DNA from: Apostichopus japonicus
Taxonomy: Eukaryota > Echinodermata > Holothuroidea > Aspidochirotida > Stichopodidae
NCBI RefSeq assembly: GCF_037975245.1
Contig: NC_092563.1
Coordinates: 15,765,094 to 15,829,093 of the forward strand
Length of the DNA stretch: 64,000 nucleotides
Reading direction: 5' to 3'
The position numbers and the translations under genes are program-made. Below the pieces are notes generated by a model. The model was not told the DNA's origin. It ran no database searches and was given only the letters and a program-made list of their open reading frames with translations. Below are positions 20,601 through 61,494 of this stretch, piece after piece. Within the stretch, counting starts at the first letter, position 1, and each line of letters opens with the position of its first letter.

Positions 20601-23600
20601 TTTAAGAAATACAAAATTGACAGTTATTTTGTTCACAAAGCAATTTGTAGTAGTTTGTTGGCATTCTAGACCAAATAAATATCCTAAGGAATAATGTCTG
20701 TTATCTTGATATTAAACCAGTTTTGATAGATTAGCATATAATCACATTAGACTCTGCTCAAAGATGCTGACATTTGCGGTTTAAGAAATACAAAATTGAC
20801 AGTTATTTTGTTCACATAGCAATTTGTAGTAGTTTTTTGGCATTCTAGACCAAATAAATATCCTAAGGAATAATGTCTGTTATCTTGATATTAAACCAGT
20901 TTTGATAGATTAGCATATAATCACATTAGACTCTGCTCAAAGATGCTGACATTTGCGGATTAAGAAATACAAAATTGACAGTTATTTTGTTCACATAGCA
21001 ATTTGTAGTAGTTTTTTGGCATTCTAGACTAAATAAATATCCTAAGGAATAATGTCTGTCATCTTGATATTAAACCAGTTTTTGATAGATTAGCATATAA
21101 TCACATTAGACTCTGCTCAAAGATGCTGACATTTGCGGTTTAAGAAATACAAAATTGACAGTTATTTTGTTCACATAGCAATTTGTAGTAGTTTTTTGGC
21201 ATTCTAGACTAAATAAATAGGAGGCATTAAACCAGTATAATATTAGCTGAATAGACTCAAATGTTAGCTTATCTTGTAGGATTTTATGACGTCTCAAAGG
21301 ATTGAAATGTTGTAATAGAATATGCAGTGTCCTTGCCTTTAAGCCATATGGTAGAGGCTATTTTCCACTGCACTGAGTATTGACCAAATATCAGTGGTTT
21401 GATTCTTCATGATTGATACAGTTGCAATGAAACTGCAAAGAATGTACAACAGGTGTTTCTATACACAGAGCTGCTGTATTTTTTTAATCAAGTTGCCATG
21501 CAATTGCAAAGAATGTATAACAGGTCTTTTTATATACAGAGCTGTTGTATTTTCCGAATCAAGTGGCCATGCAATTACAAAGAATGTATCCAGGTGTTTC
21601 TTTACACAGAGCTGTTGCATTATCTGAATCAAGTTGTCATGCAATTACCAAGAATGTAAAACAGGTGTTTCTATATGCAGAGCTGAATCAAGTTGCCATG
21701 CAATTACAAAAAAATGTATAACAGGTGTTTCTATACACAGAGCTCAGAGCTGTTGCATTTTCTGAATCCAGTTGCCATGCAATTACAAAGAATGTTTAAC
21801 AGGTGTTTCTGTACACAGAGCTGTTGTATTTATGTTCCTGGTTTAATGATAAATATGTTAGTAGACTTAATACGTATGACTTAATACTTATGATACCCAA
21901 GTTGTATGTCTCAAATTATTTCCTGACAAAGGAAGCTCTCCACACTTCTTCTACTTTGTTTTCTTCCATGTGCTGTGAGGATGTTCACTAAGTTTGATCA
22001 TATCAGATACTTCCTGTTTGTTCACTCTGGCAGTAACCAGGTGTATAAATGGGGACCTGCGAGGTAACTTGTAAATATAGTTGCGTGCGCCGGTTTGTGG
22101 CTGCATCCTATGGGAAGTCCCCCGGGGACACGTGGTTGTGGTGCACTGTGGTGCCCCAGGAGAGATTGATTGAATTGTGCACACTTTGGTGTGTGGGTGT
22201 GACAAGTTACCAATGACCAGGGGTTAATAATAATCAGCGCACTGAGACTTAAGTGTGTATTTGCGCTTTATAAGAACTGTGTATTATTATTATTATTATT
22301 ATTGTCCCAATATCTATAAAAAAAAAAATCAATTTTTCCTTTTGCAAGATATCTTATCCTCTTTTTTTCTTCTTCTTACGTTCATCGTCAGATCCGAAAG
22401 CGAAACCGCCAGCGGAGATGCCAGGAGGGAGTCCAGGAGGAGGAGAGCGAGAGGCAGCCACTCGGAATTGGATAACCAAACAGCAGGCGAGATGCAAGAG
22501 GTATTCATTTAGTTACAAAGAAATGAAAAAAAATATATATATAATTTTGTTTTTTTAATTTCCTAGCTATTCATAAATGGGAACCCAGATTAAAATGGCT
22601 CCAAAGTGAGTACAAAATATATAAACGTTCCATGGTAATATAAAAAGAAAATTGAGATATATAATATAAGTACACTGTAAATGTGGCAGTTCTCAGAAGG
22701 CTATGAGATGAAGATTGTCAAACATTTTGTAGCTGTCATGGAACAGTTGGAAATAGTACATTTGCAAGTTTTAAAAACAATGTTGTAATGGTACCAAATG
22801 TTTTTTTTTTTTAAATTTTTTTTAAGGTTATTGTAAAGTGTCTTTATATGAACGGTGGATGCTAAAATATTGTACGATTTGGATTTGCTGAAAATATTAC
22901 AAACTTTTTGCCAAGAATTTTGCTGGGTATCAATGAAAATTCCTTCTTTTTTCTTTGTAATAAGATCAAAGCACTTTTGAGTAAAGTCATGGCAGCCTTT
23001 GAACACCAGCAGGACGATATGACGAAGCTAAGACAGGATATCACCAAATCGCAGCAGTCCAACAGCATCATACAGTCCATGAAATCAAGAATCGAGAAAC
23101 TGGAGAAGAACATCAACACCAAAGTAGATACCCTCGTAACCGAACACGCCAAAGGAGAACGTATCCTTTATTTATTAACTTACTTTGTGAGTGGATGAAA
23201 GCGTTGGCGAATTGGTATCGCTGGTGTCTATGGTCTTACTGTTTAAATTGTTTTGGTAGTAAAGCTCTAAGCCATATGGCCTGGGAGGTTACAGTTCCCA
23301 TAGATTGATATGATAAACCAGACAACTACTTCAATGGGGATTCTACAGCATTTCTACTGGGGGGGGGGGGGGTGGGTGTCATATGAGCGTTTCTCCCCAG
23401 GGGGGTGTCATATCGGTCCTAACCGAGCCGTAGATACGGCTCTGTGTCCTAATACACGTAATATTTACTGTTTACAGGACTCTGAGGAATTTGTAAAGAG
23501 CTGTTACATATCTCAAAACTAAGTGCCAGTTGTGAAAATAATTTTTCAGAAAGATCTCGTCTTCAAAACGATAAGAATTGCAGGTCCAGTCCAGTATGTT

Positions 23601-26600: not shown

Positions 26601-29600
26601 ATTTCTCACTAAGCTCATAAACAGATCAATATATATATTAATATTGTTGTGTAATTCAAGCTGCAAAGTTTGGGGATCTTGCTGGCTAAATCCTGGTGGA
26701 GTTTGCCAGTTGCACCCAACCCCTCCCTCCTCCCTACCACCAAAAAGGCAATATTTTCTGGCAGTGGACATTAAGAACTTGAGAACATGAGGTCAGTTAA
26801 GAACTGTCTGTCACAGAATTGGCATGATTTCTGTATAAGCCCTGCATTACTGCTTAATATTGTGTGTTGTAATTCTGGCAATTGCCAGTGAAAATTTGAG
26901 TTTAGCCTGTTGATATTTTTAAGTACTGGTGTTTTTAGCTTGTCTTCTTTGGCAAGTGGCTCAAATAGGCATGTGGTTAACATGAGGTTCGTTTTCACAC
27001 TATGCATTTGTTACGGTTATACCATTAGATTTGTTTATAGCTTGTGGATCTTACATTGTGTTTTTTTTTTTTTTATAAATTTTCATTGACCAGTAACATT
27101 TGGTATTGATTACTGCCAATGAATATACCTGTTCCAAGACAGAACTTGAAACAGGTATATTCATTGATCAGTCAGATTTGGTATTGATTACTGCCAATAA
27201 ATAGACCTGATCCAAGACAGAATTTAAACAGGTATATTCATTGATCAGTAACACATTAATCAGGAACATTTAATATTGATCAGGAACATTTGGTATTGAT
27301 TACTGCCAATCAATATACCTGTCCCAAAGCAGAACTTGGAAGCATTAATGATCTACAGCTTTCCTGCTGTATTTATTTGATTTCTTTCCCGGAAAGGAAG
27401 GCCCTGGATGTCCCAAGGGGGTGGGGTAGAGTAACATAGTTGTTATTTCTGTCTCATGAATCATATTAAAATATTGTGGGTATAATCATACCTTCTGCAT
27501 CTCGTCCAACTTGGTCTCTTCGTCCAATGTTTGGTAATCAGTTGTTTTTCTTCTTCGTCTTTTCCTAACCATTTATCCAAGGCACTCAACAAATGCAGAC
27601 GACATCTAAGGAACACACCGTTTCCATCAAACAAGAGAGCGAGGTGGTCATTGCTGAGATGCGCAGCCTCGGAGATTCCCAGCAGAACGAACTGAGGAAT
27701 CTGAGGATAGAAATTGAGAAGAGCTTGCAGAAGTCGATTTCTCAACAACTACAGACCCAAACTGAAAGGTCAGTATGGGCAAGAACTATAAACATTCACA
27801 GAGAAGTCAATACTCTCTTCATCACACTGTTAGGCAGGCATGAGCTTTTTCCGCGAATTCGCAGAATATTCCGTGAATTCTTTTCTACCTCGGGGACAAA
27901 AACTATTATCCTAACACACTGTAGCATACGCAAACTGGAGCCTATACCGCAATTTTTGCAATTTTTTTGCATCCCTGATTATGTTTCCATCTGTTTTAAG
28001 ATTGTACAATTATTTGGTGAATGTTGTCAATACAGGATCCAAGGTTGTCTTTTCAGCTCATTTAAAAACCAGTCTGGCCTGTCATCAGAAGATTTAAAAA
28101 AAAACTCTCAATTGTATTTTACAACCCCAATGAAAAAAGTTAACCATTTTTGATCACTAAATTGTCAGTTTATGAGCAAAGGCTGTGTCCATGTGAATCT
28201 TTGTCATTTAAAATTTTGAATTATTAAAAGAAATTTGCTCATGCTGTCCAAAACTAGCTATAATCATTGAGAAACGTCGCCGTAACATGATGAAGGTGAC
28301 TTTAGGGTACCGTTTGGTAATGTAAAAGATGATTGACCGTTGACAAAGGAATCTGTTTGCGTGTTATTTAAATGGAAATGCATACCAACACTGTAAATGG
28401 ATGTGTTAATGCAGAGTGTAAGCTGGTTTGAAGCTCATGACCTCTGTTCTATTCCCTCGTTTGTACACTTTGTCGAGGTTAATCTGAAATAATTCTTCAA
28501 TCTTTGGGCATTTGCATCTTTTCCGATAATAATACAGAATGGAGAGAAACTTGGCCGGCCATTTGCAACAGTTGATCGTGACGGAGATACAACCTGTGTT
28601 GAAAAAACACCAGGATTCTGTTCATGAAAGTATTGTCTCTGTGGTGAGATCTCAAGCAGCTACTCCAGTGCCCCAGCAGCCTGATATAGAGAGAACGGAG
28701 ATCCAGATAATGGAACTACTGAGGAGGAAGAAGATTAACGATGCTTTCCAGGTGGTAAGCGTCTCGTTTTCAACAACACACAGTGTCGTAGCGTGTTGTG
28801 ATTATCTCAAGCCATTGTTTCCTAAATAAGTGTTAATGACATCATTGGGAAATGAAATGTATTAGCTTTCAAGAAACTTGACAATAAAACTAGACTATTG
28901 AAAGGAAAAATCAGTTCAAGGTTAAAAGGTCAGCCTTTCTTTCATAATCAGTGCCGTAACAGTGCTGTTCTCATTAGAATGAAGTTTTCAGATTATCATG
29001 AAAATGTTGAACTTTCCAATTGCTCCGTTGGCATGTGATCATTCTTCCTTGCATGGAAATCATCTCAACGGAGTATTGTTCAAACCAAATCACCCACTGA
29101 CTCACTCGGAGAGATGTTTGCTAAATGTTTTGGCTAGAGATAAATTTTTAATTCTGGTTGAAGAAAGAGGAGCAAAAATCCGACCATTTTGGTGCAATTT
29201 GCAATTGATTTGTTCATATCCACTGATTTGATAAAGATATCAATTCGCTGAAATGGAATACTGGTAGAGGGTACTCCATAGATTTGAAGGAAGGATAGAT
29301 TTTAGGGAGGTACTGCATAGATTTGAAGGAAGGATAGATTTTAGGGAAGTACTCCATAGATTTTAAAGAAAGGATAGATTTTAGGAAGGTACTGCATAGA
29401 TTTTAAGGAAGGATAGATTTTAGTTAGGTACTGCATAGATTTGAAGGAAGGATAGATTTTAGGGAGGTACTGCATAGATTTGAAGGAAGGATAGATTTTA
29501 GGGAGGTACTGCATAGGTTTTAAAGAAAGGATAGATTTTAGGGAGGTACTGCATAGATTTGAAGGAAGGATAGATTTTAGTTAGGTACTGCATAGATTTG

Positions 29601-32563
29601 AAGGAAGGATAGATTTTCGGGAGGTACTGCATAGATTTGAAGGAAGGATAGATTTTAGGGAGGTACTGCATAGTTTTTAAAGAAAGGATAGATTTTAGGG
29701 AGGTACTGTAAAGATTTGAAGGAAGGATAGATTTTAGGGAAGTACTCCGTAGATTTTAAAGAAAGGATAGATTTTAGGAAGGTACTGCATAGATTTTAAG
29801 GAAGGATAGATTTTAGTTAGGTACTACATAGATTTGAAGGAAGGATAGATTTTAGGGAGGTACTGCATAGATTTGAGGGAAGGATAGATTTTAGGGAGGT
29901 ACTGCATAGGTTTTAAAGAAAGGATAGATTTTAGGGAGGTACTGCATAGATTTGAAGGAAGGATAGATTTTAGAGAAGTACTCCGTAGATTTTAAAGAAA
30001 GGATAGATTTTAGGGAAGTACTGCATAGATTTGAAGGAAGGATAGATTTTTGGGAAGTACTGGATAGATATTAAGGAAGGATATATTTTAGGGAAGTACT
30101 CCATAGATTTTAAAGAAAGGATAGATTTTAGGGAGGTAATGCATAGATTTTAAGGATGGATAGATCTTTGGGAAGTACTGGATAGATATTAAGGAAGGAT
30201 AGATTTTAGGGAAGTACTCCGTAGATTTTAAAGAAAGGATAGATTTTAGGGAAGTACTGCATAGATTTGAAGGAAGGATAGATTTTAGTTAGGTATTGCA
30301 TAGATTTGAAGGAAGGATAGATTTTAGGGAGGTACTGCATAGTTTTTAAAGAAAGGATAGATTTTAGGGAGGTACTGTATAGATTTTAAGGAAGGATAGA
30401 TTTTAGGGAAGTACTCCGTAGATTTTAAAGAAAGGATAGATTTTAGGAAGGTACTGCATAGATTTTAAGGAAGGATAGATTTTAGTTAGGTACTACATAG
30501 ATTTGAAGGAAGGATAGATTTTAGGGAGGTACTGCATAGATTTGAAGGAAGGATAGATTTTAGGGAGGTACTGCATAGGTTTTAAAGAAAGGATAGATTT
30601 TAGGGAGGTACTGCATAGATTTGAAGGAAGGATAGATTTTAGGGAAGTACTCCGTAGATTTTAAAGAAAGGATAGATTTTAGGGAAGTACTGCATAGATT
30701 TGAAGGAAGGATAGATTTTAGGGAAGTACTGGATAGATATTAAGGAAGGATATATTTTAGGGAAGTACTCCATAGATTTTAAAGAAAGGATAGATTTTAG
30801 GGAGGTAATGCATAGATTTTAAGGATGGATAGATTTTTGGGAAGTACTGGATAGATATTAAGGAAGGATAGATTTTAGGGAAGTACTCCATAGATGTTAA
30901 AGAAAGGATAGATTTTAGGGAGGTAATGCATAGATTTTAAGGAAGGATAGATTTTAGGAAAGTACTCCATAGATGTTAAAGAAAGGATAGATTTTAGGGA
31001 GGTAATGCATAGATTTTAAGGAAGGATAGATTTTAGGGAAGTACTCCATAGATGTTAAAGAAAGGATAGATTTTAGGGAGGTAATGCATAGATTTTAAGG
31101 AAGGATAGATTTTTGGGAAATACTGGATAGATATTAAAGAAGGATAGATTTTAGGGAGGTACTGCATAGGTTTAAAAGAAAGGATAGATTTGAGGGAAGT
31201 ACTCCATAGATATGAAGGAAGGATAGATTTTCGGGAGGTACTCCACCGATTTTAAAGAAAGGATAAATGTTAGCGGCATACTCCCATAGATATTTTAGGA
31301 ATTTACTCCATACATTCCAAGCAAAGCAAATGTTTATTACCAGTTTATAAACCTACTTTAAGTGTGACAAAAGCAACGGAATCTGGGGTGATCAAGTAGG
31401 CAAGGATTTGAGCTAAGTCCTGAAATGCAAGCAGCTGTTCTTGTTCTCTGTGTTGTTTGTAATATCCGTGATGGTACTGAAAGGTTCCTTGTTTTTTTGT
31501 TTTCTTTTGATTTCGTCGCCCAGGCGTTGAATGCTGCAGACCTGAGAGCCCTGATGTTCGCATGCAAGAAGGTAGAGATGGAGCTAGTGTTTGGCGAGGA
31601 GTGCGCCCTGGAACAACCAGTGCTACTCTCCTTGATTCATCAGCTGTCACATGACCTCTCCACGGACACCGAGCTGAAAACCAGGTGAGTGGTGCCATGC
31701 TTGACATTACGGTATGCGTCGGTATCATATTCAAAATTAATTTAATAGTAATAAAAATGATAATAATCAGCAGTTATTTTTACGACGCTTGAGCAACGAC
31801 AAATGTGGGAGAAAGGGCTAATGGATTACAACTTACACGTCAGGTGGCTTCCAATTCAACATTTTAAGTCAAATTTGGATTCTTTGCAATTGAGAAAGTC
31901 ATTTCAGATGGGAAAACGTAGATTGCTCTTGGATGAAAAACCCACTTTACTATGACCCGGTAGGGAATCGAACCTGAACCTCCCGATTGCTATAAGCCTC
32001 ATTGCTTCAAATGCCACCACCTTTATCCACTCGGCCACAGCAATCAGTGTCGTAGAAGGGGAGATTTAGTGTTTCCTATCAGTTAGTAGCGCAGTCAGGA
32101 ACTGGTGAAGGGTAGCACATGGAGGGGTAGGGTGGGGTGGGTGATTGGTAGGAGATTTAGGGACATCAATGTGGTGGGATTTGGAACAGGGTTCGTTAGT
32201 CTTTCTTAATTTAAGGCAACTGGCTGCTGAAGGGGAAGATGAGCTGTTACTCTGTATCAGAGAAAATCTCTTCCGACATCTGTGTCTCGTTTTGCCTCTT
32301 CGTTGTTCTGTTTCGTTTCGTTTTGCGTTGGAAATCGTCAATATATCCTGCAACTTTTATTGCGCTTTGTTCTCAATTTCAGCTGTTTGGAGGATTGCAT
32401 CGTGGCAATCAACGTTGAATCGGAGGTCACCAAAGGTCATCTGCCCAGCATCTTAGAGGATCTCATTGTCAACATCAGCGGTTACATCCAAAATCCAGCA
32501 TGCACTCCGGAATTAATGAAACGGTTGAAACGTGTTAGCAAGCAGGCCATGAGGATGAGATAG
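5674..32563 (+). CDS. EDC4: enhancer of mRNA decapping 4, complete gene, 25 exons
   Basis: Exons: 5674-5770, 6721-6778, 8735-8762, 10180-10250, 10845-10956, 12438-12537, 13099-13285, 13585-13726, 14548-14655, 15351-15544, 16234-16417, 16576-16747, 17179-17266, 17565-17662, 18496-19396, 20349-20492, 22392-22500, 22965-23160, 24158-24313, 25112-25227, 26140-26305, 27582-27768, 28538-28754, 31524-31684, 32383-32563. All junctions are in phase with GT-AG borders and give 4173 nt, 1390 aa; human EDC4 has 1401. Landmarks include QHLRELL, VKYDWGSKYYVGN, GTVKFWEMIW, WRFLLTGAD, WCTVSWKCLQ, VIPAFDNACKNMFQQM and QPVLLSLIHQLSHDLS. EDC4 is the P-body scaffold that couples DCP1 to DCP2 and promotes mRNA decapping. 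Least certain points are the exon 16 donor (GG|GTCAGC) and the exon 22 acceptor. An ATTAAA at 32664 is a possible poly(A) signal. Confidence 0.95.
8947..9925. repeat. 43-bp minisatellite, about 23 copies, in EDC4 intron 3
   Basis: A head-to-tail array with consensus containing TGATAAGAGTCTAATGGGGA followed by CAACATTTGGCGGTTTCATG. Unit variants (CATTTT for CGGTTT, AAAGAG for AAGAG, CAATATT for CAACATT) recur in blocks, so groups of units were copied together. Spacers are absent, so this is a simple tandem array and not a CRISPR. The last unit decays into unique sequence near 9925, about 250 bp before exon 4. Confidence 0.95.
14000..14440. repeat. tandem duplication, about 233 bp x 2, EDC4 intron 8
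   Basis: Two adjacent copies share TATTAATCCACAAGGTTTTC, GGACTCTTAGGTATGCCTTG and TGCTGGTGTTATTGGAAGTA at an offset of about 230 bp. G-rich stretches separate and end the copies. The duplication is intronic and has no coding potential that I trust. Confidence 0.85.
14870..15190. mobile_element. possible LINE 3'-end fragment, EDC4 intron 9
   Basis: The block contains GGGGGAAGACTGTTCCACAA and AAGCCCTCAATACAAAATACA, wording that recalls 3' ends of non-LTR retrotransposons and the frame region encoding a C-terminal 'F-x-NxLP' motif. No reverse-transcriptase reading frame is present. The assignment is from general recollection of such tails and could be wrong; a consensus search would decide. Confidence 0.25.
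16876..17008 (-). mobile_element. tRNA-headed SINE with hammerhead-like core, EDC4 intron 12
   Basis: On the minus strand the block starts with a Pol III A-box-like TGGTCGAGTGG (about 16984-16994). It continues into a GATGAGTCC / CAAAA / GGACGAAAC arrangement at 16926-16951 and ends in a TTATTTATTTA tail beside an (AT)n run. The order GATGA, helix II (GTCC:GGAC), GAAAC is that of a hammerhead ribozyme, and short CCA:TGG arms could form helix I. The conserved CUGAUGA box is imperfect (CAGATGA), so activity is doubtful. The layout resembles hammerhead-bearing SINE-like elements such as schistosome Sm-alpha. Confidence 0.6.
18496..19396 (+). other. EDC4: EDC4 exon 15: long Ser/Pro-rich acidic linker
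   Basis: At 901 nt this is by far the largest exon of the gene. It encodes about 300 residues rich in Ser, Pro, Thr, Glu and Asp with acidic runs (AEEEEDDNAP, GEDEEEETKE) and no predicted fold by eye. The start, ALRDGLSDVSFSAAEQS with GSQPDLIGG soon after, matches the position of the GSQPDL motif in the vertebrate linker. It is markedly more GC-rich than the surrounding introns. It joins the propeller to the coiled-coil half and is likely disordered and phosphorylated, which is inference from composition. Confidence 0.88.
20512..21219. repeat. 179-bp tandem repeat x 4, EDC4 intron 16
   Basis: Four nearly identical units run back to back starting at about 20512, 20691, 20870 and 21048. They contain TAATGTCTGT(C/T)ATCTTGATA, GATTAGCATATAATCACATT and AAATACAAAATTGACAGTTA. 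The array starts only about 20 bp after the exon 16 donor. High identity between units indicates recent expansion or homogenisation. Confidence 0.93.
21420..21835. repeat. about 70-bp tandem repeat x 6, EDC4 intron 16
   Basis: Six units of the type TTGCCATGCAATTACAAAGA followed by ATGTATAACAGGTGTTTCTA and a CAGAGCTG stretch, with small deletions and one duplicated CAGAGCT. This is the second array in the same intron, separated from the 179-bp array by about 200 bp of ordinary sequence. Confidence 0.9.
24660..24790. repeat. about 42-bp tandem repeat x 3, EDC4 intron 19
   Basis: Three units of AATAAAGAACAATACGG(T/C)TA followed by AACAGAATAAAGGACA. AT-rich and intronic. The repeated AATAAA words could act as premature poly(A) signals, but nothing else supports that. 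Confidence 0.8.
27094..27330. repeat. repeated hairpin-forming units, EDC4 intron 21
   Basis: The unit holds a perfect 17-bp inverted repeat, CAATGAATATACCTGTT at 27117-27133 and its complement at 27150-27166, with a 16-nt loop. A diverged second hairpin follows at about 27177-27245 and a third partial unit extends to about 27330. Shared flanks read ACATTTGGTATTGATTACTG. Confidence 0.8.
29270..31290. repeat. 39-bp minisatellite, about 52 copies with 669-bp higher-order period, EDC4 intron 23
   Basis: The monomer reads GTACTGCATAGATTTGAAGG then AAGGATAGATTTTAGGGAG. Several monomer types (CTGCATAG, CTCCGTAG, CTGGATAG, CTACATAG) occur in a fixed order that repeats. Marker units at 29663, 29742, 29821, 30057 and 30175 recur at 30332, 30411, 30490, 30726 and 30844, always 669 bp later. 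That equals about 17 monomers plus a few bases, so a block was duplicated as a unit. The array fills most of the intron between the two penultimate conserved exons. Confidence 0.95.
31950..32046 (-). mobile_element. tRNA-derived SINE head, EDC4 intron 24
   Basis: On the minus strand an A-box-like TGTGGCCGAGTGG (32027-32039) is followed 50-odd bases later by a B-box-like GGTTCGATTCCC (31963-31974), the layout of a serine/leucine-type tRNA. The acceptor arm does not pair, and the anticodon arm is poor. So this is read as a SINE or tRNA pseudogene and not a working tRNA. No clear tail or target duplication was found. Confidence 0.65.
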
Positions 32564-33821
32564 TTAGGCATAGTAGATGCAGTTTGAAATAGATGTTGTT
32601 GGCACTCTTCATTTTTTTCCCTGTGGTTATTACCTCCATAAGAAAGAAAGAAAGCCCTGTTTTATTAAAGACAACAACCAGTCATACACGGTAACATGAT
32701 ATCTTAGGATGTTATTTTAGTCTACGAATGGCAAACGGATAATTCGTGTCGTTAATCCATGAAAAGTTTTATTTCCATCGGCTAAATGAGAGGACGCACG
32801 CCTTTGTTGCTTTCACATTTTTTTTCCCCTCATCCTGTGAGTCTGGAGTTGTAACTGTTAAAATAACTTGGCCCCCCCACCCCACCCCCAAGTGTGATCA
32901 AAGGTGATCAGCCTAAAGCATTCCCTTGTTGCGAACATACGACAGAATTTTGAGGGTGGTTACGATTTTATTCATCACACTTTCTCAAGATGGAATCTGA
33001 AGTATTTTAATGCTTGTCTTGTCTGTAATAGGTAAAGTTACAAAATATTATTGACTTCAGATAATGGGTAGTGTAATGTACTTTAACACTCTGACTTTAG
33101 TACGTAACAACTTTTCTTGAGAAATTCCTGAAGCGTTATATTGACGTTGACATCAAGGGACAGTATCTACACTTTATCTTCACGTTTTATGGGGTGGGTG
33201 GGATCTTTGAAATCTCAATGTTTCGGTGGTTGCTACGTTTCAAGAATGAATTGTCAAATGTCCAAGTTTCTGGAATACATTATCTAGGAAATGAGGATAT
33301 TTTTTCCCCTTCAAATTTATATTATTCTAGGCCTGCTTACAACTTTGGGAATGATCATGGACAGTAAGTGACATTCAGGAACGATTCCAGGGACTCCTTA
33401 AATCCTGGGACAGTCCATAAAATCTGGGGACTGTGCCCGCAAATTGTAGACGTCTCTTAGAACAGGATAAACACCATAGGCAAAACAGTTATGTGGATAG
33501 TGTTAGGAAGGAAGATGACAATTCACTGCCCCGACTGAATGTGACCCACACTCAACTGGACCGATGTGACCTAGTATTGGATAGTCTGGAAGGCCCCCCC
33601 CCCCTTTAGTCTAACAACTGACCCTCGCACACCCTAAGACCGATAGAGCTCACAAAGACTGCTCTTGTTAACAGCCTGTGCACATTTAGGTGACATCCAA
33701 AATTACTTTCTGGTTACATTTGTCGAGACTGGACTGTTTTTTCGGACTTAAAACTTAAAATCTTGAAGAGCTGTAGTCATAAGCAGTACGGGAAATTCCA
33801 AACTATCCAAGATTTTCCTTC

Positions 33822-34345
33822 GGGCAGTGTGCGGCATGCTTTACATGAGAGTACACCGTGAAATCACAGTCTGACCTTCCTTGTTAGTATGCAACAGAGA
33901 CATGAACAGGTTAATACTTCATTGTATGGCAGAGTTGACTGGAGTCATGGTCAGACAGGCAGTGGGCGGCATGCTTTATATGAGAGCATACCGTGACATC
34001 AGAGTCCAACTTTCCTTGTCAGTATGCAACAGAGACATAAACAGGTTAATACTTCATTGTATGGTGGAGTTGACTGGAGTCATGGTCAGTCGGGCAGTGG
34101 GCGGCATGCTTTACATGAGAGCATACCATGACATCAGAGTCCAACCTTCCTTGTCAGTATGCAACAGAGACATAAACAGGTTAATACTTCATTGTATGGT
34201 GGAGTTGACTGGAGTCATGGTCAGTCGGGCAGTGGGCGGCATGCTTTACATGAGAGCATACCATGACATCAGAGTCCAACCTTCCTTGTCAGTATGCAAC
34301 AGAGACATAAACAGGTTAATACTTCATTGTATGGTGGAGTTGAGT
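33822..34345. repeat. 135-bp tandem repeat, about 4 copies
   Basis: Units begin at about 33822 and repeat every 135 bp (the word GCAACAGAGACAT falls near 33891, 34026, 34161 and 34296). Because 135 is divisible by three, one frame stays open for 158 codons (33881-34357). This is most simply a by-product of the repeat. The later copies are almost identical and the first is diverged. Confidence 0.93.
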
Positions 34346-52491: not shown

Positions 52492-52518
52492 TACAGTGGT
52501 GTTACGTCGAGGTTGACA
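52492..52518 (+). repeat. left terminal inverted repeat of the 9-kb element
   Basis: 27 bp beginning TACAGTGGTGTTACGTCG, perfectly complementary to 61468-61494. One further outer base (G at 52491, C at 61495) also fits. Sequence homology stops sharply inside it. Confidence 0.9.
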
Positions 52519-52520
52519 TT

Positions 52521-52697
52521 ATCGTCTGGGCATTATGGTCGGTAATAGTCGGTTATCGTCTTTATAGTCGGATCGTCGAGCAACACTTTAATCGTCGGGA
52601 ATCTCAAGCAGCACTATTATAGTCATGCAGCGCGAGTATCGCCGGCTTGAAATACACTATAACGTCAGATTATCGTCAGTTAATCTGCAGTATCGTC
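52521..52697 (+). promoter_or_regulatory. left subterminal ATCGTC motif cluster
   Basis: Six ATCGTC words occur on the plus strand at 52521, 52555, 52572, 52591, 52672 and 52692, most preceded by T and followed by purines. The 14-mer AGTCGGATCGTCGA (52566-52579) recurs exactly at 61412-61425. Clustered subterminal repeats are typical binding sites for transposases or accessory proteins. That role is inference. Confidence 0.65.
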
Positions 52698-54158
52698 GGT
52701 AAGGTAGAAAGCTTAGAGGAAACGAACAATAGGTTGTGGTTTATGCTTCCAGGAGCAACAGCCACGAGGAAGAATGGCTACTAACAATATGTCAGACAGT
52801 AAACTAATTGCAAGATAATTCCTTGCAAGAGGACCGAGGCCATGACCAAACACTACTGTACTGTATATTATCAATGCCAACATACTGTACAAATCTGAAT
52901 ATAGGCCTAACGAAAATATTTCAATTTTGAATGCCTTAGTAAATCATCATTGATTTTACGGATATATAATACATTACACCATATGAACATCAGAAATACA
53001 ATCATACTTCCCAGTATCAAGCACGCTGATACATTCCCTACCGCTGAAATACACCCTATCCATTGGCCGGTCTGACCGGCACATAAACCTTTTAACCCTC
53101 GACTTGTTTGAAATATATATTTTCTTTTCTAAAAGTATTCCACGATCACTAGACAGCCCCCTCCCCCCCCCTAGTATCGCAACAACCCATCACAACAACC
53201 CCTACCTACCCCTACTCCCCCCCCCCCAGTTGCCTAAACTTTGCAATAGACTCGTATATTTACCTTGCAAGGTACAAATATCCAGCAGCAGATAAAATTA
53301 TGATAAATCCAATACGGTCCAGAGTAACAATATGCGAAAATCTAACTCCCGTTCGTATTGCTAAATAAACGTTGGTGTTACGAGAAAGGCTAATAAATGT
53401 CCAGTTGAAATTAATTGTATCCAATGAATTTATCTTGGCGACCTGCCAACTTTTACTTCCACAGCAAATATAACATGAGTACCGCGTAAATGGGTCAACG
53501 AATAACAGGTGGCTCTAAGAAGACCCTTCGTTTCTCAAGCTTTGTCACTGATCTAGATATTAACCGGGTCAGGCATAGGGTTGGGCGATATTTTCTTTTT
53601 ACCGTCACGATAAATAGTTCAAAAATTATCGCGATATTGCGATAATTTTTCCTCTAACAGAATTAGCGTAAGTGTCGAGCTTTGAGTGGACGGAGAAAGA
53701 GAGATATATGGAGGGGACATTCAAAGAGAATATCTGAAAAACCTTACGATATTTTGCACAAATATTGGTACTTAGATAAGCGCTTCCTCACAATCGAAGA
53801 GCCGCCCCGAACTTCGCTCCGCTTACGTAAAACTTATACATATATATATATAAAACACGTGGAAAAACCGAGTTTTTACACACATAATTCCCAGTGACAT
53901 TGGTCACAAAACAAGTAGGTCATCGACATTCGAACTTGCACAAGTTCATTGCACCATGGGAACAAAACAAGACATTGAACATGATGGTTCATTTTCCCGC
54001 CATCTAGACGCCGAGTGTAAATTTTCGTGTAATATGCAAATTATGAATGGTACTGTTCAGCAAGGTTAAAACTTAACCTAGTTGCGACACATACAACTTT
54101 TGGGAAGTTGTTGCAGCTGTTGTAGAAGTAATTTTTGTATCAAATGTAAAGTACTATC

Positions 54159-54290
54159 AGGCGCGTATCCAGGGGGTGGGGCGTTGGGCGCGAAAGAAAG
54201 AGAAGAAAAAAGGGGAAAAGGGGGGGGGGAGAGAGAGGAGGAAGGAAAGAAAGGAAAGGGGGAAAAGAAAGAGAAAAAGGAGAATGAAAT
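54159..54290 (+). repeat. GC-rich head with purine-rich tail repeat (inverted copy near 50260-50386)
   Basis: CAGGCGCGTATCCAGGGGG is followed by a GCG-rich stretch and then a long GA-rich tract. The same order appears on the minus strand at about 50386-50260, outside the 9-kb element. A dispersed repeat of unknown class. Confidence 0.7.
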
Positions 54291-55652
54291 CCAATAAAGC
54301 CCACGGGCACTGTTCTGTGTCGATATCTAGCGATATCTAGGGATGAAAATCCCAAGATCTTCCCTAAACAAGGCAGATAGAGAATCGAAGCCTTCAGTGT
54401 GTAATGAACTTGAAACTGTGCGTCTTTCGAAATGAAAATAATGTGGGGCAAAGAAGTGAACTCCTATGGACTCGGACCGTACTGAGCCGATGGCCCTGGT
54501 GGAATTATTTTTCTTTTCACTCTGTTGGAAACAACGGTAATTATATATAAAAAATGACACAAGAAACGCTTAAGTAATACTTTATTATTTCTTCAAAATG
54601 TTGCCAACTATCCAAGTAAATTTATTCTCCGTGAAACATAACCTCTACAGCTGTAAAAAAAAAAAAGAGTCGGGGAAAAGAAACACTGAATACTGAACCC
54701 CAATTAACGAAAAAACAGTTAAGTTCTATGCCGGCAAACACTCTACCTGCGTCCTCTGAAATATCGCGTCATGAATTACTATTTAAGAAACGGCTGTTTC
54801 AAACATCTCAGTAATTCTTCGGCGACTTTGATCCCTATTCATTGAGCACAATAGCATTTCATGCGTATAAACTCGTATAGGGATTATACGAGGTGTCAAC
54901 GCGGCATGTATCATTTAATTCCATTTGAAATTATCACAAAAAAAAGATTTTTTGTTGTAATGCATTAGTTCTCTTGTTTGTGTATAATAACACGAACTTC
55001 TTAACCGCCGAGGTGTTAAGGCTATTGGCATTTCACTGTGCTAAGATATACACGCATCTCACACGTTAGTCATATTATTGTCATTATTCAAACTTTTGAT
55101 ATGTCCTTCCTGTACGTTGATTCCCCCCCCCCCCACGCTCCCCACAGTTTATTATTTACTCCTCGTTATTTAATCCTCTCTTTATCCTTCTACAGTTTAT
55201 ATTTTTTCCCTGGCTTATTTTCTTCTCTCCCTCTTTGTTTACTAATCCGTTTACTTCTTTATTTGTGTTCGCTCTGCCCTCTGTATACCTACACTACTGT
55301 AGTACAGTAGTTTGCCTCTTGTATTTCCTGTTACTCGTCTTTGCGTCCGAAGTCCCTACTAGGGTCGAAACTAGACCCCCCCCCCCACTCCTTTTTTTAA
55401 CATAATGACCAGAAATAACAGGGTTTTTCTGTACTTTGACGGGGCGTAAAAAAAACTTAGTTTGTAAATGGCGATTTTTTTTTTCAACTTTATTAGGAAG
55501 CTAGCACCGCCCCTGACATTATAATCCGAAATCAGTGCTCAGGGTAAGTTGTTATCCTGCCCCACCCCCCGGGGGTAATATTCGGTACTAAAAATGAAAG
55601 CCTTAATTTAAATACAAAGGATGAAATACAAGCATGTTTGAGGGAGGATGTT

Positions 55653-55691
55653 CATCTCTTTCTGGAATATATGGTGGTCCTTAAAAGAACC
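55653..55691 (-). promoter_or_regulatory. histone mRNA-type 3' processing signal after the transposase
   Basis: 21 nt beyond the transposase stop, the minus strand reads GGTTCTTTTAAGGACC (55691-55676). It forms a six-pair stem with one G-U and a TTTA loop and fits the GGYYYU-loop-ARRRCC consensus of replication-dependent histone mRNAs. It is preceded by an A/C-rich stretch (CAAACAAAAC), followed directly by ACCA, and 10 nt later by CCAGAAAGAGATG (55665-55653). That resembles the purine-rich histone downstream element (CAAGAAAGA in sea urchins) which pairs with U7 snRNA. Spacing and order are those of a working signal. Function is inferred. Confidence 0.7.
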
Positions 55692-55712
55692 GTTTTGTTT
55701 GTTACAGACAAC

Positions 55713-56735
55713 TTAATACTGTGTTGCCTCTCCCCGACTTTCGATGACCGCTGGTATTGCCTTCTTCAAGTTGTTGATGTAGGTTCGGCACTTTTGTGGG
55801 GTCACCCGCTCCCTCCAGAACTTAAGAATTCCTTCCACCAGTTCCTCCTTCTTGTGTGGCTTCCATTCTTTCCGTAGGAAAGTCTTCAACTCATGCCACA
55901 CCTTTTCGATCGGATTTAGGTCAGGGCTCTCTGGGGGAGTCTTCCACCATGTAATATTGGTTTCCTCCATGAAACGTCTTGCGTACAGACTGGTGTGTTT
56001 TGGGTCGTTATCTTGCATCAGACGAAAACCTTCTGGGAAATTTTTGCGACCGAAAGGCAGAAGAGCTTCTCGTAAAATTTCCACGAAGAACTCCTGACGC
56101 ATTATCCCATCGAAGATGAAGATGTCAGTAGCCCCCCGCTTCGAAATACCGGCCCACACGTGCAATTTGTATGGGTGCTTCGGTTTTCCTTTAAGTTTAG
56201 GTTTTGTGCCTTTACGGTGAAATACTATCCTGGCATGATGATCTAGCTCGATTGAACATTCGTCAGTAAACACAACGTCATTGTAAGTTTCATTCGTTAG
56301 GGCCAGTTCTCTGATGTGTATCAAACGCTTGATACGGTTTTGCCTTCTGATATTTTGGGCAAACTGAGTCTGCTTAAACACCCACCCAAGTTCAAGCTTC
56401 TTCTTCCTGATAGTGGATGTGGCGAAACTGGTGCCCGTGGCCTTGTGTAATTCTCGGCGAAGATCTGCTGAAGTCAACTCGTCGTTGGTCTCCATCAACC
56501 CATCAATAAGTTTAAGATGCTCTGTAGTCATACTTCGTTGCCGTCCACCCCGCTTGTTGTTTTGCAGGTTACCTCTCGTACGGAATCTCGCTATAATGTT
56601 CTTCACGGTGTTCCGAGATATCAAAACACCAGAATCTTTAAGTTCTCGCCAAATTTGTAAAGGTGGTTTTCTTCCGAGAATTGCCGCACGTACAATATTC
56701 AGTCGTATATGCGTTGGTACTAACTTGCCTGGCAT
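55713..56735 (-). CDS. Tc1-type DD34E transposase, intact
   Basis: The frame runs from ATG at 56735 (context ATATGCCAGGC) to TAA at 55713-55715 and encodes 340 aa, the usual Tc1 length. An upstream extension to 56759 would need a TTG start and is not used. The N-terminal 110 residues form paired-like helix-turn-helix segments (GRKPPLQIWRELKDSG, ISRNTVKNIIARF) joined by GGRQRS, a GRPR-like linker. The catalytic domain has VFTDECSIEL (first Asp), LMQDNDPKHT (second Asp) and PDLNPIEKVW (Glu), with 34 residues between the second Asp and Glu. It cuts and pastes DNA at TA sites. No stop or frameshift is present. It lies head to head with the BEN gene and is followed by a histone-type 3' signal. Confidence 0.95.
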   Translation of the reverse strand: MPGKLVPTHIRLNIVRAAILGRKPPLQIWRELKDSGVLISRNTVKNIIARFRTRGNLQNNKRGGRQRSMTTEHLKLIDGLMETNDELTSADLRRELHKATGTSFATSTIRKKKLELGWVFKQTQFAQNIRRQNRIKRLIHIRELALTNETYNDVVFTDECSIELDHHARIVFHRKGTKPKLKGKPKHPYKLHVWAGISKRGATDIFIFDGIMRQEFFVEILREALLPFGRKNFPEGFRLMQDNDPKHTSLYARRFMEETNITWWKTPPESPDLNPIEKVWHELKTFLRKEWKPHKKEELVEGILKFWRERVTPQKCRTYINNLKKAIPAVIESRGEATQY

Positions 56736-57044
56736 ATTGTATTCGAAGGTATAGCTCAAGGAAAACTGAGTTACAGTATGAAATTACCCTTGCAGAATGA
56801 ATGCATGTAGTGAGCGAACCTGGTTGCGCTATTACGGAACCACATGCTAATCCCCCTATTGATGTTTGATTGCATTATGTTAACAAGATAAAGCACTGCC
56901 TAAAATAGGCAGAAAGTTTATTGGCGGTGTCATTAAAGTAATTACTTTGTATAAAGCAAAGAACTTCGAGATCCCTGCTACCATTCGAATACAGTTTCTG
57001 TAGAAGAGAGCCAATACTGTGTACAGTAGTATTTCAACACCAAC
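56736..57044. promoter_or_regulatory. bidirectional promoter region between transposase and BEN gene
   Basis: 309 bp separate the two start codons. On the plus strand TATAAAG at 56950-56956 is a plausible TATA box about 90 bp before the BEN-gene ATG. Toward the transposase no clear TATA was chosen. Two such close divergent starts imply shared control. Confidence 0.5.
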
Positions 57045-59835
57045 ATGATTTCAGTAAAGACGTCAGTACAAGCAGTGGATCCTGCATGTGGAATCTGGCT
57101 CATCGGAAAAGTTTTGGAGGAGAGAGCCGACGCCTTCAAAATTCGCTGGGCGAACTACAGAGTTACAGATTGGGTTTCTAAAGAAAAAACGAGACTGCCC
57201 GTGCCAAAGCGGCAATGTCGGCTGGAGAGTGAAAATTGGAAAGAAACCCAACCGCAGTTCTATCAGAAAGGTGAAGAAGTTACAATAAAGAAGGCGGACG
57301 GAACTTCTGGGGAGGTTGTAACAGTCGAGGAAAACGACCCTTTTAACTGCGTGGTAAGTACCAAGGATTTACAGTCGCACCCCCCCCCCCATCGCCAATC
57401 GCCCTGAAGAACTGTACACGTAGGCCTCTTTACCATTTCGTTATGATAGTGTAAACTTGCTTTAAGTCTTCCTCTGGTTATTTTTTAATCTCAATACAGT
57501 ATCTCGATAACGATATCACCTTTTATAAAATCTAACGTTAATATCTTGTTAGAAGAAAATTAATGGTTTTTGAACTTATACTTCTTTACTCGTCCAGTGA
57601 AAGTAGGGGGTACAGTAGGCGGTTTACAATATGTAACGCAACGTATAGTGGCGAAGCACCTCGTAATTTCTTATAGAAAGCCCGAGAAACATTGGCTTAG
57701 AATATGTTCCTGTAATTAAGCAAAATAGCAACTACTTTGTATATTCTGCTGCTTAGTTGTCTCGTTCTCAAATATAATTTATTTTTTGTCGCGCACGTTA
57801 GAATTGACCTGATCACCATGTACAGTATATATTGCATCTATTTTTTTTTTTAAACCTTGAGATACGGCCGATTTTTAACGCTTCATTTGAAAACTAAATC
57901 TTAAAGACTTTTTGGGCCTACAGTGTCTGTAGCCTAGAATCGACAATTCAACAACAATTTCTTTCAATTTTTCACCGAAAGCCCGAGGAACATTGTAACT
58001 ACAAATATTCTTCTTGATTGTCTCGTTCTCAAAATGCGTTTTGTTTTTGGCGTTCACCGTATCGACATTATATATATCCTTCCAGATCTATGCCAAAAGC
58101 AGAAAGCTAAAATATGAGTGGCTCATGGAAATGAATCTGGTGGAATCAACGGATCGGAGGCAACCGTTAGTAATGATTGTAAACCAGGGAGAGGGCTCAA
58201 CCAACCGCAGTAGTACTGTTATACATCGGGATGTCGTCAACCACCAAAGGGACCAAGAAAACGAAACCCCGCGAAGGCGCCCCGCACAACCTAAGAGAGC
58301 CACGTCAAGCAAGGCGCCGTCGACGACGAAGAAGACAAGGACGCTGGTGCCCAAAAAGGTACGATGAGCTATCATTTTGGTGGTTACGAAGTAACTTACA
58401 GTAAATCCTTCAATCACACCTTACCATTTAATTCCTTTTGATAACCTGCTCGGACACAGCAAAAAAATTGGAAAGAAGTATTTATATAAATGTGACACTG
58501 TGTGTATACAGCGTACTGTACATTTGTAAAAGAGACGATTTGAAAAGTTGAAGTTGTTAACATACTGTAAAACGCATAATTGAAATTTCTGCGTAAAGAG
58601 TACAGGTTCCAGATAGCATTACCTCTTTCTCCTCATTAACGATCAACATGGCAAAAGAAGATAAATTGATACGATGCTATTCATAGATGTCCTCATTATA
58701 CACAATTGGGTGGAACTTATTCGTTCCTATAAAAAGCTTTGTGGGTTTGAAAAAGCCGATCAGTTACAAAGTTTAAGGTGATTCAATTATAAACAAACAC
58801 CAGTACATAACAAGGACCACAGAGACGGGTGGGGGCGGGGTAGCCTCCTCCATTTTTTCTTGCTATGTAAATTTTGAAATGATCACCTTATTACCGTGGA
58901 CCGTTTTTCCCTAGAAAAAACGAGATTTTTTCGCTGCAGTCCCTGTAAAATGATTCTTTACTCAGTACACCTACAGTAACTGTTAAAGCAGAAAAACACA
59001 CGGAACGTACTTGATTAAACGATGCATACCTAATACAGTAACCTTCATTTTGTTTATTCATTTGTTCTAACAGATTGCAACGAGGATAGCCATTGGGCCA
59101 GCAGCCCCAGGGGATGATGGAGGTCCGCCACAAGCAGAAGGGATGGCATATGGATGCGCAGATGCTGCCACAATGGCGATTCAGTCAGTGGTATCGTCAG
59201 CCACAGCAGAGGGCAATCCCCTACCTTTGCCGGATGAGTGGTCGAGGGCTACTCCAGCCTTTGGTTGTTCAGCAGTGTGCGACGGACGATTTGCTGAATT
59301 AACCATGAAGATTTTAGCGCAGTCCGAAGAGCTTGCAGAGTTGAGGAAGAGAGTGGATGAGATGGAGAGGAAGCAAGGGTCAATACAGCAGGCACCAACA
59401 TCTTCCCCAATGCCTGTACCTGCCACACCGCCACCAATTGAGCTTTCCAGTGCAGTCGGCAATGCGTTACTTACTCTGTCTTCCTCGCCCGCACCCGCAC
59501 CCACACCACTGCAAGAGCAAGATAGCCCCATCCATGTTCTCTTGGCTAAATGTTGCCAGGATCGAAGGCAAATGGCGAAACTGTTGGCTGTGCAATATTT
59601 TACGGCGGAAGAGCGACTACATGGAAATACGTCAGGGAAGCGTGGCAAGACCCAACTTGACCAACACCGCCTACAGAAAATACGACAATCCATCTTCGAT
59701 TTTGCACCGCTACCGACACACCAGGCAGAGGAAGCTGAGTGGGCACGGTTGAAGACAACCATCGATCTCTTCAACAGGCACTATAGGCAGCAACTGCGAG
59801 AGAAGGCTAATAAGACAGTACATAACCTTATCTAG
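57045..59835 (+). CDS. Tudor/agenet-like and BEN-domain protein, three exons
   Basis: Exons 57045-57353, 58086-58358 and 59074-59835 all join at phase 0 (donors GTAAGT and GTACGA) and encode 447 aa. Residues 15-50 (GIWLIGKVLEER, FKIRWANYRVTDWV) look like a Tudor or agenet module. A second one (FYQKGEEVTIKK) is split by intron 1 and finishes in exon 2 (KYEWLMEMNLV). Exon 2 ends in a basic, Lys/Arg-rich low-complexity stretch. Exon 3 has a short coiled coil (LAQSEELAELRKRVDEMERK), a Pro/Ser linker, and a C-terminal BEN domain (about residues 335-430; LLAVQYFTAEERLHGNTSGK, TQLDQHRLQKIRQSIFDF). BEN domains bind DNA in chromatin repressors; Tudor-type folds often read methylated tails. The gene is intact and lies inside the TIR element opposite the transposase. 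Confidence 0.85.
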
Positions 59836-59950
59836 TTGTAATGTAACCTTATCTAGTTGTAATGTAACCTTATCTAGTTGTAATGTAACCTTATCTAGTT
59901 GTAATGTAACCTTATCTAGTTGTAATGTAACCTTATCTAGTTGTAATGTA
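59822..59950 (+). repeat. 21-bp tandem repeat x 6 at the BEN-gene stop codon
   Basis: Six copies of AACCTTATCTAGTTGTAATGT. The first copy supplies the last codons (NLI) and the TAG stop of the BEN protein. The rest lie in its 3' UTR, and every copy repeats the stop. Poly(A) signals AATAAA follow at 60125 and 60135. Confidence 0.93.
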
Positions 59951-61023
59951 ACAATTTTCTGTGAGTTTAAACTGAACTTGAGCACAAATAATATCTTTTT
60001 AGTTGTCTCCTACAGTACAGGTAGTTGTATGTTACACAAAACAAGATCCATTTTATTCATTCTATATTTAAAGAATGTTGAACAATTTACTATAGATGCT
60101 TCTAAAACATTCCTCAATACGTAAAATAAATGAAAATAAATATAGAAGTTATGAGTGATATAAAGTTTACAAAATATGAAAGGTGTTGCCTCAGTAATGC
60201 GTTTATTTTTTCACTTAAGAATAACATGAGTGTGATTTTTTGTGTGCTATTATTTATACGCTATTTCGTCAAACTTATACATTTTTTTCCTCACTCAGTC
60301 GGATCATATTGGACAAGCTCCGAAATTGTACTGATATAAAGAGTGTACTTACAATGCATTTTAAAATTCGATTTTAAGTTAATCTAAAGTTGCGTAATGT
60401 GCTCTGATGTCAGTCTATTTGGTTCAAAATAAATTTTCAAAAATTAAATCTTCTCTCAATACTTTTCAGTGTCTGTAGTAAAATCAGTTCATATGAAAAT
60501 AACGATGTACGCTTAGGTCTCTGTTTAAGCACGTCACCACCCCCCCCCCCCATCCCTCCACTTTCCCTCAAGCTTTCAAGTCGACCCTTGGATAACGCGC
60601 GTGGGAATTGCTGCGGGTGTGTTTGATATTCCGACCATTTAACTATGTAACATTCAAATGGCGCCGCGGCGTCTGCATTGCATTGTCAGGTCGTAACAAC
60701 AAAATTAAATGGAAGTTTAAATCTATTAATTCACAGTTAACATTCTGGATAACATCGACTTAATTTGTGTTCGGTCTGCAGATGTTTTATTCTTCACCTT
60801 ATGGTGCCTTTATATTGTAAGATATTGCCGGTAAAGAAACAAATCTTTCATCAATACTATATTATCGTTAGTGGATTGCAAACATTAAACACCGTTGCAC
60901 TCGGAAAGGTACACAAGGTAATTATTTTGTTACAGGGAAAGTAGTAAAACATTAGGCTATATATATGTGAGGTGTTACATTGTTTTGCATCGAAGTTCGT
61001 GCATGTTGCGATAATACTGTAGA

Positions 61024-61349
61024 CAACTTAGGCTAGGCCGCCTAGCAATGTACAGTAAGTTTAGAAGCGCATTGTCTTTAGTTCATCAACAGGCTGTAGG
61101 CCTGATATCGTCGGGGCTAACTGACGCTATTGACTATAATTTTAACAATAGCGATCGATTTAATCCTCTCATGAATGGTCGGTCCGCAACTTGGGCTAGG
61201 CCGCTTAGCAGTGTCAGTTCAGTGCAGTAGTTCTCTTTAATTTATCAACTGACTGTAGGCCTGGTATCGTCGGGATTGTTCGACGCTACCGACGGAAAAT
61301 TTAACAATAGCGATCGATTAATCCTTTCATGAATGGTCGGTCTGCATCT
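61024..61349. repeat. 163-bp tandem duplication near the right end
   Basis: Two diverged copies at 61024-61186 and 61187-61349 share ACTT(A/G)GGCTAGGCCGC, CTGTAGGCCTG(A/G)TATCGTCGGG and AACAATAGCGATCGATT. Each copy carries one ATCGTC motif, so the duplication also multiplied the putative binding site. Confidence 0.85.
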
Positions 61350-61440
61350 TGAATTATCGTCAGGCTAAAACACCTGTACTTTAGCATTATATCGTCCGGT
61401 AGAATTTTTAAAGTCGGATCGTCGAAATTGAAATTTATCG
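61107..61440 (+). promoter_or_regulatory. right subterminal ATCGTC motif cluster
   Basis: ATCGTC occurs at 61107, 61266, 61356, 61391 and 61418, and a variant ATCGTA near 61437. All are on the plus strand, so the motif is directly repeated between the two ends and not inverted like the TIRs. It shares a 14-mer with the left cluster. Confidence 0.65.
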
Positions 61441-61467
61441 TACGGTATAGTCTGTATAGTCGTGTAG

Positions 61468-61494
61468 TGTCAACCTCGACGTAACACCACTGTA
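61468..61494 (-). repeat. right terminal inverted repeat of the 9-kb element
   Basis: Reverse complement of 52492-52518 without a mismatch, ending in CACCACTGTA on the plus strand. Perfect identity over 27 bp suggests little decay since insertion. Confidence 0.9.

Follow-up and report, generated by a model that had tools for sequence, protein, structure and literature searches.

Does a 9-kb segment of the genome of the sea cucumber Apostichopus japonicus, in which a Tc1-type transposase gene and a gene for a BEN-domain protein stand head to head between inverted repeats, constitute a single transposon, and if so, what might its second gene do? The segment lies on contig C3, within the 64-kb stretch of DNA analysed here (the window), and a first-pass annotation of that stretch had read it as one mobile unit that acquired, or always carried, a second gene. 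Tc1 elements are the textbook one-gene transposons, from which tools such as Sleeping Beauty derive; they insert at TA, which is duplicated in the process, and their ends begin CAGT. They are described as about 1.3 kb long, with a single open reading frame (ORF) and terminal repeats of about 30 bp (PMC7325037). We found that the whole 9,003-bp unit has spread as one piece to new TA sites, and that three full copies lie on three chromosomes. With good confidence, we read it as a Tc1 (DD34E) transposon that is predicted to move by cut-and-paste into TA sites, its BEN protein, a predicted DNA-binding protein, likely binding arrays of short sites at the ends to aid movement. Its ends and genes are laid out as follows.

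52492–61494, no strand: whole transposon, 9,003 bp with one TA edge counted on each side; 27-bp inverted repeats; full copies elsewhere at L009 (C23) and L010 (C20)
52492–52518, plus strand: left terminal inverted repeat, TA followed by CAGTGGTGTTACGTCGAGGTTGACA
61468–61494, minus strand: right terminal inverted repeat
55713–56735, minus strand: transposase gene, 340 amino acids (aa), DD34E; open frame with Pfam DDE_3 domain and catalytic triad
56736–57044, no strand: intergenic gap of 309 bp separating both start codons; divergent promoter predicted from the coordinates
57045–57353, plus strand: BEN gene exon 1, N-terminal domain conserved in Holothuria protein P0123 and in families 2 and 3 (below)
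58086–58358, plus strand: BEN gene exon 2
59074–59835, plus strand: BEN gene exon 3, predicted coiled coil and C-terminal BEN domain, stop codon included

The ends are sharply defined. The sequence TACAGTGGTGTTACGTCGAGGTTGACA occurs at 52492-52518 on the plus strand and at 61468-61494 on the minus strand with identity at 27 of 27 positions, or 30 of 31 once flanking bases are added, and each end, 27 bp with its TA, starts TACAGT. When we allowed up to three mismatches to the 25-bp core, the only two sites in the 64 kb were the two element ends, and 100 shuffles gave none. The perfect repeats 9 kb apart reported by the first-pass annotation thus stand, with no third site in the window.

We searched the A. 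japonicus genome (671.6 Mb, 35 contigs) for other copies of the element, hereafter family 1, using as queries its left 300 bp, which returned 15 places, and its right 300 bp, which returned 26 matches and 14 first-look candidates. DNA was examined over 10 kb at each of the 14 other left-end places (13 stretches), along continuations of these, and at four right-end places. Two further full-length copies were found. L009 (9,334 bp, on C23) and L010 (9,398 bp, on C20) align colinearly with the window element over its full length, with the same ends, the same gene order and both genes, and differ from it by an extra repeat block near 60147-60342 and by small insertions and deletions. Substitutions among the three full copies amount to 110 of 8,817, 87 of 8,876 and 96 of 8,812 aligned sites (1.0–1.3%). 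Ten copies retain two ends (the window element, L009, L010, the C7 copy made up of L011 and L026, L012, L013, L014, L015, L017 and L018), and all ten have TA outside both ends, as had been noted for the window copy. Because full copies with both genes and the same ends lie on two other chromosomes, and because TA borders every two-ended copy, the 9-kb segment is one mobile unit, as the first-pass annotation had proposed.

Seven of the ten two-ended copies are internally deleted or rearranged, with their ends retained; part of BEN exon 3 survives in L017, and neither gene has a match in the remaining six. The 25-bp core is intact in most left ends, matched at 22 of 25 positions in L016 and L019 and at 24 of 25 in L020 and L021. 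L012, L013 and L015, roughly 4.1 kb each, have common internal deletions and 25/25 ends, a pattern that points to a non-autonomous subfamily mobilised in its own right. Older copies have one end or none. Among these, L016 and L019 carry transposase and BEN pieces together, and L033 (C9), 91.5% alike to the window over 5 kb, has a transposase with four stops and a match to every BEN exon; L027 retains BEN exon 3 and L028 no gene. Asked whether the two genes occur together across copies, the family gives a uniform answer: BEN sequence adjoins the transposase in all six copies that have transposase sequence (the window element, L009, L010, L016, L019 and L033). No stop interrupts the BEN exon matches in any of the full copies, whereas in L009 and L010 the transposase is disrupted by stops or a frame break. 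The ratio of nonsynonymous to synonymous substitution rates (dN/dS) in the three full-copy pairs is 0.22, 0.19 and 0.32 for BEN and 0.38, 0.38 and 0.42 for the transposase, values that have few changes behind them.

Copies with the same ends and a different transposase had been named as evidence that would tell against a single unit. Two places, L020 (C2) and L021 (C19), presented this appearance; both hold an old left-end fragment of family 1, about 800 bp, inside a separate transposon that is bounded by 16-bp inverted ends of its own. That unit is 97.6–98.1% alike between C2 and C19, and the similarity begins 1.56 kb outside the family-1 left end. The unrelated DNA transposon is 9.9 kb long, at about 26576596-26586476 on C2 with a reverse copy on C19 (L020 with L022, L021 with L023). 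One of its genes is a 604-aa frame with DDE-like motifs, a weak C2H2 finger and no Pfam DDE match; the other encodes a coiled coil with a weak DUF4806 match and is BEN-like by eye. It may be another case, independent of family 1, of a transposon that carries a BEN-like gene.

The description of the two genes as intact and head to head also holds for the window element. The transposase frame runs stop-free for 340 codons, from 56735 to 55713 on the minus strand, and matches Pfam DDE_3 with an E-value of 1.8e-20. Its triad is D158, D242 and E277, with D242 and E277 spaced 34 residues apart (DD34E), and the three further families described below are spaced alike. At the N-terminus, where Tc1 transposases have a paired-type helix-turn-helix domain, matches to HTH_32 (E-value 1e-6; 29.6 bits, cut-off 33.7) and PAX (E-value 3.4e-4; 21.0 bits, cut-off 22) both lie below their Pfam cut-offs. 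Spliced, the three exons of the BEN gene encode 447 aa, 100% identical over the full length to the annotated A. japonicus protein P0121. The BEN domain (PF10523) of the window copy scores 22.7 bits (E-value 1.2e-4), just under the Pfam cut-off of 23.2; among its relatives, P0123 (25.8) and the family-4 frame (29.2) score above that cut-off and the family-2 frame (18.2) below it, and the family-3 frame has no Pfam match. All six matches of the BEN protein to solved structures up to an E-value of 1 are to BEND3 or BANP, at 0.3–0.62. BEND3 and BANP are host-encoded chromatin proteins, whereas the BEN gene here lies inside a transposon. The predicted structure has a mean predicted local distance difference test score (pLDDT) of 44.6 and is fairly confident only for the C-terminal helices (about residues 351–440). 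A perfect 21-bp tandem repeat of 6.2 copies (window 59823-59952) spans the BEN stop codon.

We next considered how old the association of the two genes might be. Three further DD34E transposase families, with 45–46% protein identity to family 1, have a BEN gene less than 4 kb away. In family 2 (C1:21314482, 46%; second copy on C17), a BEN-type gene stands head to head with the transposase; its N-terminal part is matched at 33–40%, and its C-terminal BEN domain at 31% to P0123 (E-value 8e-7). The ends of family 2 are perfect 33-bp repeats starting TACAGTACTGATTTCGC (TACAGT); the C17 copy shows both of them with their TA edges, the C1 copy shows the left one, and the joined C1 and C17 stretches give a length of 13,636 bp. 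Across three stretches of 2,523, 3,501 and 3,430 bp, the identity between these two copies is 100%, 99.86% and 99.94%, respectively. Family 3 (C17:15937125, 45%) has the same head-to-head layout, with both N-terminal and BEN parts matched and exon 1b split across two frames. In family 4 (C1:11247616, 46%), the BEN frame lies 3.5 kb upstream on the same strand as the transposase and matches the annotated A. japonicus protein P0125 with 96% identity across 300 residues. Holothuria leucospilota has both a transposase (P0001, 70%) and a BEN protein (P0123, 38%). Rows for phylogenetic analysis came from 120 among 1,074 matches to the family-1 transposase, of which a careful tree used 29. In this tree of 33 transposases, families 1–4 and five database rows fall on one side of a branch and 24 others on the other (support 97/96), and a quick tree of 68 rows, including the transposase locus L036, recovered the same split with a value of 93 in the SH-like approximate likelihood ratio test (SH-aLRT). 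The first-pass annotation had left it between a BEN gene acquired and one always carried. Because three further families also hold the transposase–BEN pair, the comparison favours a gene that has probably long been carried and disfavours recent acquisition.

The pairing is also visible genome-wide. A transposase search of the genome gave 48 matches, clustered into 28 loci, and a BEN search with P0125 gave 55 matches, clustered into 34 loci; both lists are lower bounds, and the pairing count covers loci matched by the family-1 transposase. Twelve of the 28 transposase loci have a P0125-type BEN match within 8 kb, as compared with a mean of 0.03 and a maximum of 2 under random placement (2,000 trials). 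In six of these pairs, including the one in the window and those of both family-2 copies, the layout is head to head; in three the BEN match is upstream on the same strand and in three downstream on the same strand. At five more loci (C20, C23, C9:4503807, C17:15630256 and C17:17908448) BEN sequence was read directly in the DNA, for a total of 17 of 28.

What the BEN protein might act on is suggested by the sequence just inside the ends, where two arrays of a short motif were found.

52521–52697, plus strand: left subterminal array, nine AT[A/C]GTC sites in one direction
61107–61461, plus strand: right subterminal array, seven AT[A/C]GTC sites in the same direction, with one reverse site

On the plus strand of the element, AT[A/C]GTC occurs nine times in the first 230 bp, seven times in the last 460 bp and once between; outside it (window 1-52400), any 230-bp or 460-bp stretch holds at most one. 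All 15 left ends examined have 3–10 sites and none in reverse, and 12 of the 14 right ends have 5–9 with 0–2 in reverse, the weakest two being C19r with 2 and C18r with 1. The motif bases are better conserved than the rest in the left ends of L014, L016, L017, L019, L020 and L021 (for example 96 versus 82–85%, and 85 versus 71%), and likewise in most right ends. Family 2 has repeats of its own, TCGATAA, likewise in one direction, with two in the first 200 bp, three in the last 250 bp, six overall and no reverse copy at the ends.

Given that the ends begin TACAGT and sit at TA, as in Tc1 elements, we infer that the transposase encoded by the element cleaves at the 27-bp ends and that excision is then followed by insertion at TA. 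Both genes would be driven from a shared divergent promoter in the 309-bp gap. The BEN protein, in turn, may bind the same-direction AT[A/C]GTC arrays and act as an accessory factor that helps to pair the ends and load the transposase. We propose the end arrays as its natural targets because a BEN protein of Drosophila recognises one particular DNA site; it also represses neuronal genes (PMC5704228). BEN genes are known from diverse animals and two virus families (PMC5704228). With a BEN gene beside the transposase in three distantly related families as well, a long-lasting helper role for the protein in these elements is likely. A bolder form of this proposal is that families 1–4 represent a hitherto undescribed giant Tc1 clade with an obligate, anciently co-inherited transposase–BEN pair, in which BEN reads family-specific same-direction end arrays and is required for movement; we put this forward tentatively, with nearly as much credence as doubt.

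Several observations weigh against our reading of the element as a whole. No empty site with a single TA was seen, and no search was made for one. The dN/dS values are based on few changes, and the transposase itself gives 0.38–0.42. At the level of the genome, 11 of the 28 transposase loci have no P0125-type (that is, family-4-type) BEN match within 8 kb, in a search that did not use the family-1 BEN as query, and the 3.3 kb of L036 contain nothing that matches BEN. A head-to-head layout is lacking in family 4 and at five further loci. Some BEN loci, including C14:6553645, the site of P0125, stand apart from any listed transposase, and so do 16 rows of one repeat-like BEN frame (query span 373–475), for which no listed Tc1 transposase is close. 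Finally, the left ends of L011 and L018 and the right ends of L017 and C16a conserve the motif bases no better than their other bases. The 16 BEN-like rows are open frames of about 119 aa (C13:7592873, C13:18556330, C2:31984025, C20:30988099 and C16:21846193 among them) and perhaps represent another multi-copy mobile family with a BEN domain.

The chief alternative for the BEN-protein step is that the protein regulates expression, binding the arrays so as to lift silencing by the host or to control both genes of the element. The Drosophila BEN protein that binds a specific site and represses neuronal genes would be a precedent (PMC5704228), and arrays that run in the same direction at both ends, not as an inverted pair, are as compatible with a mark on element DNA as with end pairing. 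The arrays are terminal, however, lying within 230 and 460 bp of the ends and away from the central 309-bp gap, and we consider a regulatory role rather unlikely.

Two other explanations would dissolve the partnership altogether. One is a composite, in which a short Tc1 element inserted into a larger, unrelated element that already had both the 27-bp ends and the BEN gene; a typical Tc1 element is short and has one gene (PMC7325037), and the transposase is a small part of the 9 kb. The first-pass annotation had itself singled out a nested Tc1 as what would undo the one-unit reading. We scanned for TA-flanked 24-bp inverted pairs around the transposase and compared the result with ten shuffles. 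Six weak pairs were found, the best matching at 17 of 24 positions; the shuffles gave 0–3 pairs, fewer than the real sequence, but the best of these likewise reached 17 of 24. None of the six starts CAGT, and in all six the right arm lies past BEN exon 1, so no pair outlines the transposase alone. The outer ends, moreover, themselves start TACAGT at TA, and the transposase–BEN pair recurs in families 45–46% apart, in family 2 between TACAGT ends of its own. We regard a composite as very improbable. The other explanation, recent capture of a host BEN gene by one Tc1 element without any lasting role, would fit the protein search, which returned just three matches for the family-1 BEN protein, each from a sea cucumber. 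Set against it are a BEN neighbour in four transposase families, N- and C-terminal parts conserved in families 2 and 3, and BEN exons without a stop in any full copy, although two of these copies have a broken transposase; we give recent capture hardly any weight. A BEN protein that assists transposition remains our preferred reading.

Elsewhere in the window, long tandem arrays occupy 8946-9922, 20512-21219, 29270-31273 and 33820-34343, with units of 43, 179, 79 or 118, and 135 bp, respectively.

How, then, should the element be classified? With its DD34E transposase and DDE_3 domain, its TACAGT ends and TA at both edges, it is like the Tc1 family of the IS630-Tc1-mariner superfamily. Unlike Tc1 as usually described, these elements measure 9–13.6 kb rather than about 1.3 kb and have a second gene in place of the usual single ORF (PMC7325037). 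A single ORF and a length of about 1.3 kb are usual for Tc1, not defining, and multi-ORF elements are still filed in the superfamily. The ciliate TBE elements have three ORFs, including one for a zinc finger protein (PMC7325037, section 8), and in Paramecium, Sardine is about 6.7 kb with up to four ORFs and Anchois has three (PMC3464196), as given in the sections of these sources available to us. TBE, Tec, Sardine, Thon and Anchois are thus similar in joining a Tc1/mariner-type transposase to further ORFs; they differ in that no BEN protein is named for them in those sections, and the repeats of TBE, Tec, Sardine and Thon are about 80–700 bp as opposed to 27 bp here. Membership in TBE/Tec is ruled out by two genes in place of three ORFs, by the 27-bp repeats and by the sea cucumber host.

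A second gene for a DNA-binding helper is also found in PIF/Harbinger and CACTA (En/Spm) elements, and CACTA elements have short subterminal site arrays as well. Both belong to other transposase superfamilies, with other target sites and end sequences; PIF/Harbinger elements make a 3-bp target duplication and encode a Harbinger-type DDE domain. The TA edges and the DDE_3 domain rule out PIF/Harbinger membership for the element described here. We found no BEN-carrying Tc1 element or other DNA transposon described in the open-access titles and passages searched. Given the one-ORF rule of Tc1, the multi-gene relatives already known from ciliates and this absence, the BEN-carrying Tc1 adds to a known kind of element an architecture that is itself old and recurrent.

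A supported clade with a second, DNA-binding gene and recent complete copies would show that a two-protein system evolved within the Tc1 superfamily in an animal, and if the pair is indeed obligate, an animal Tc1 lineage would work as such a system. A BEN-carrying Tc1 clade would also link BEN domains to mobile DNA, and the nearly intact elements of A. japonicus allow a direct test of the second protein's role.

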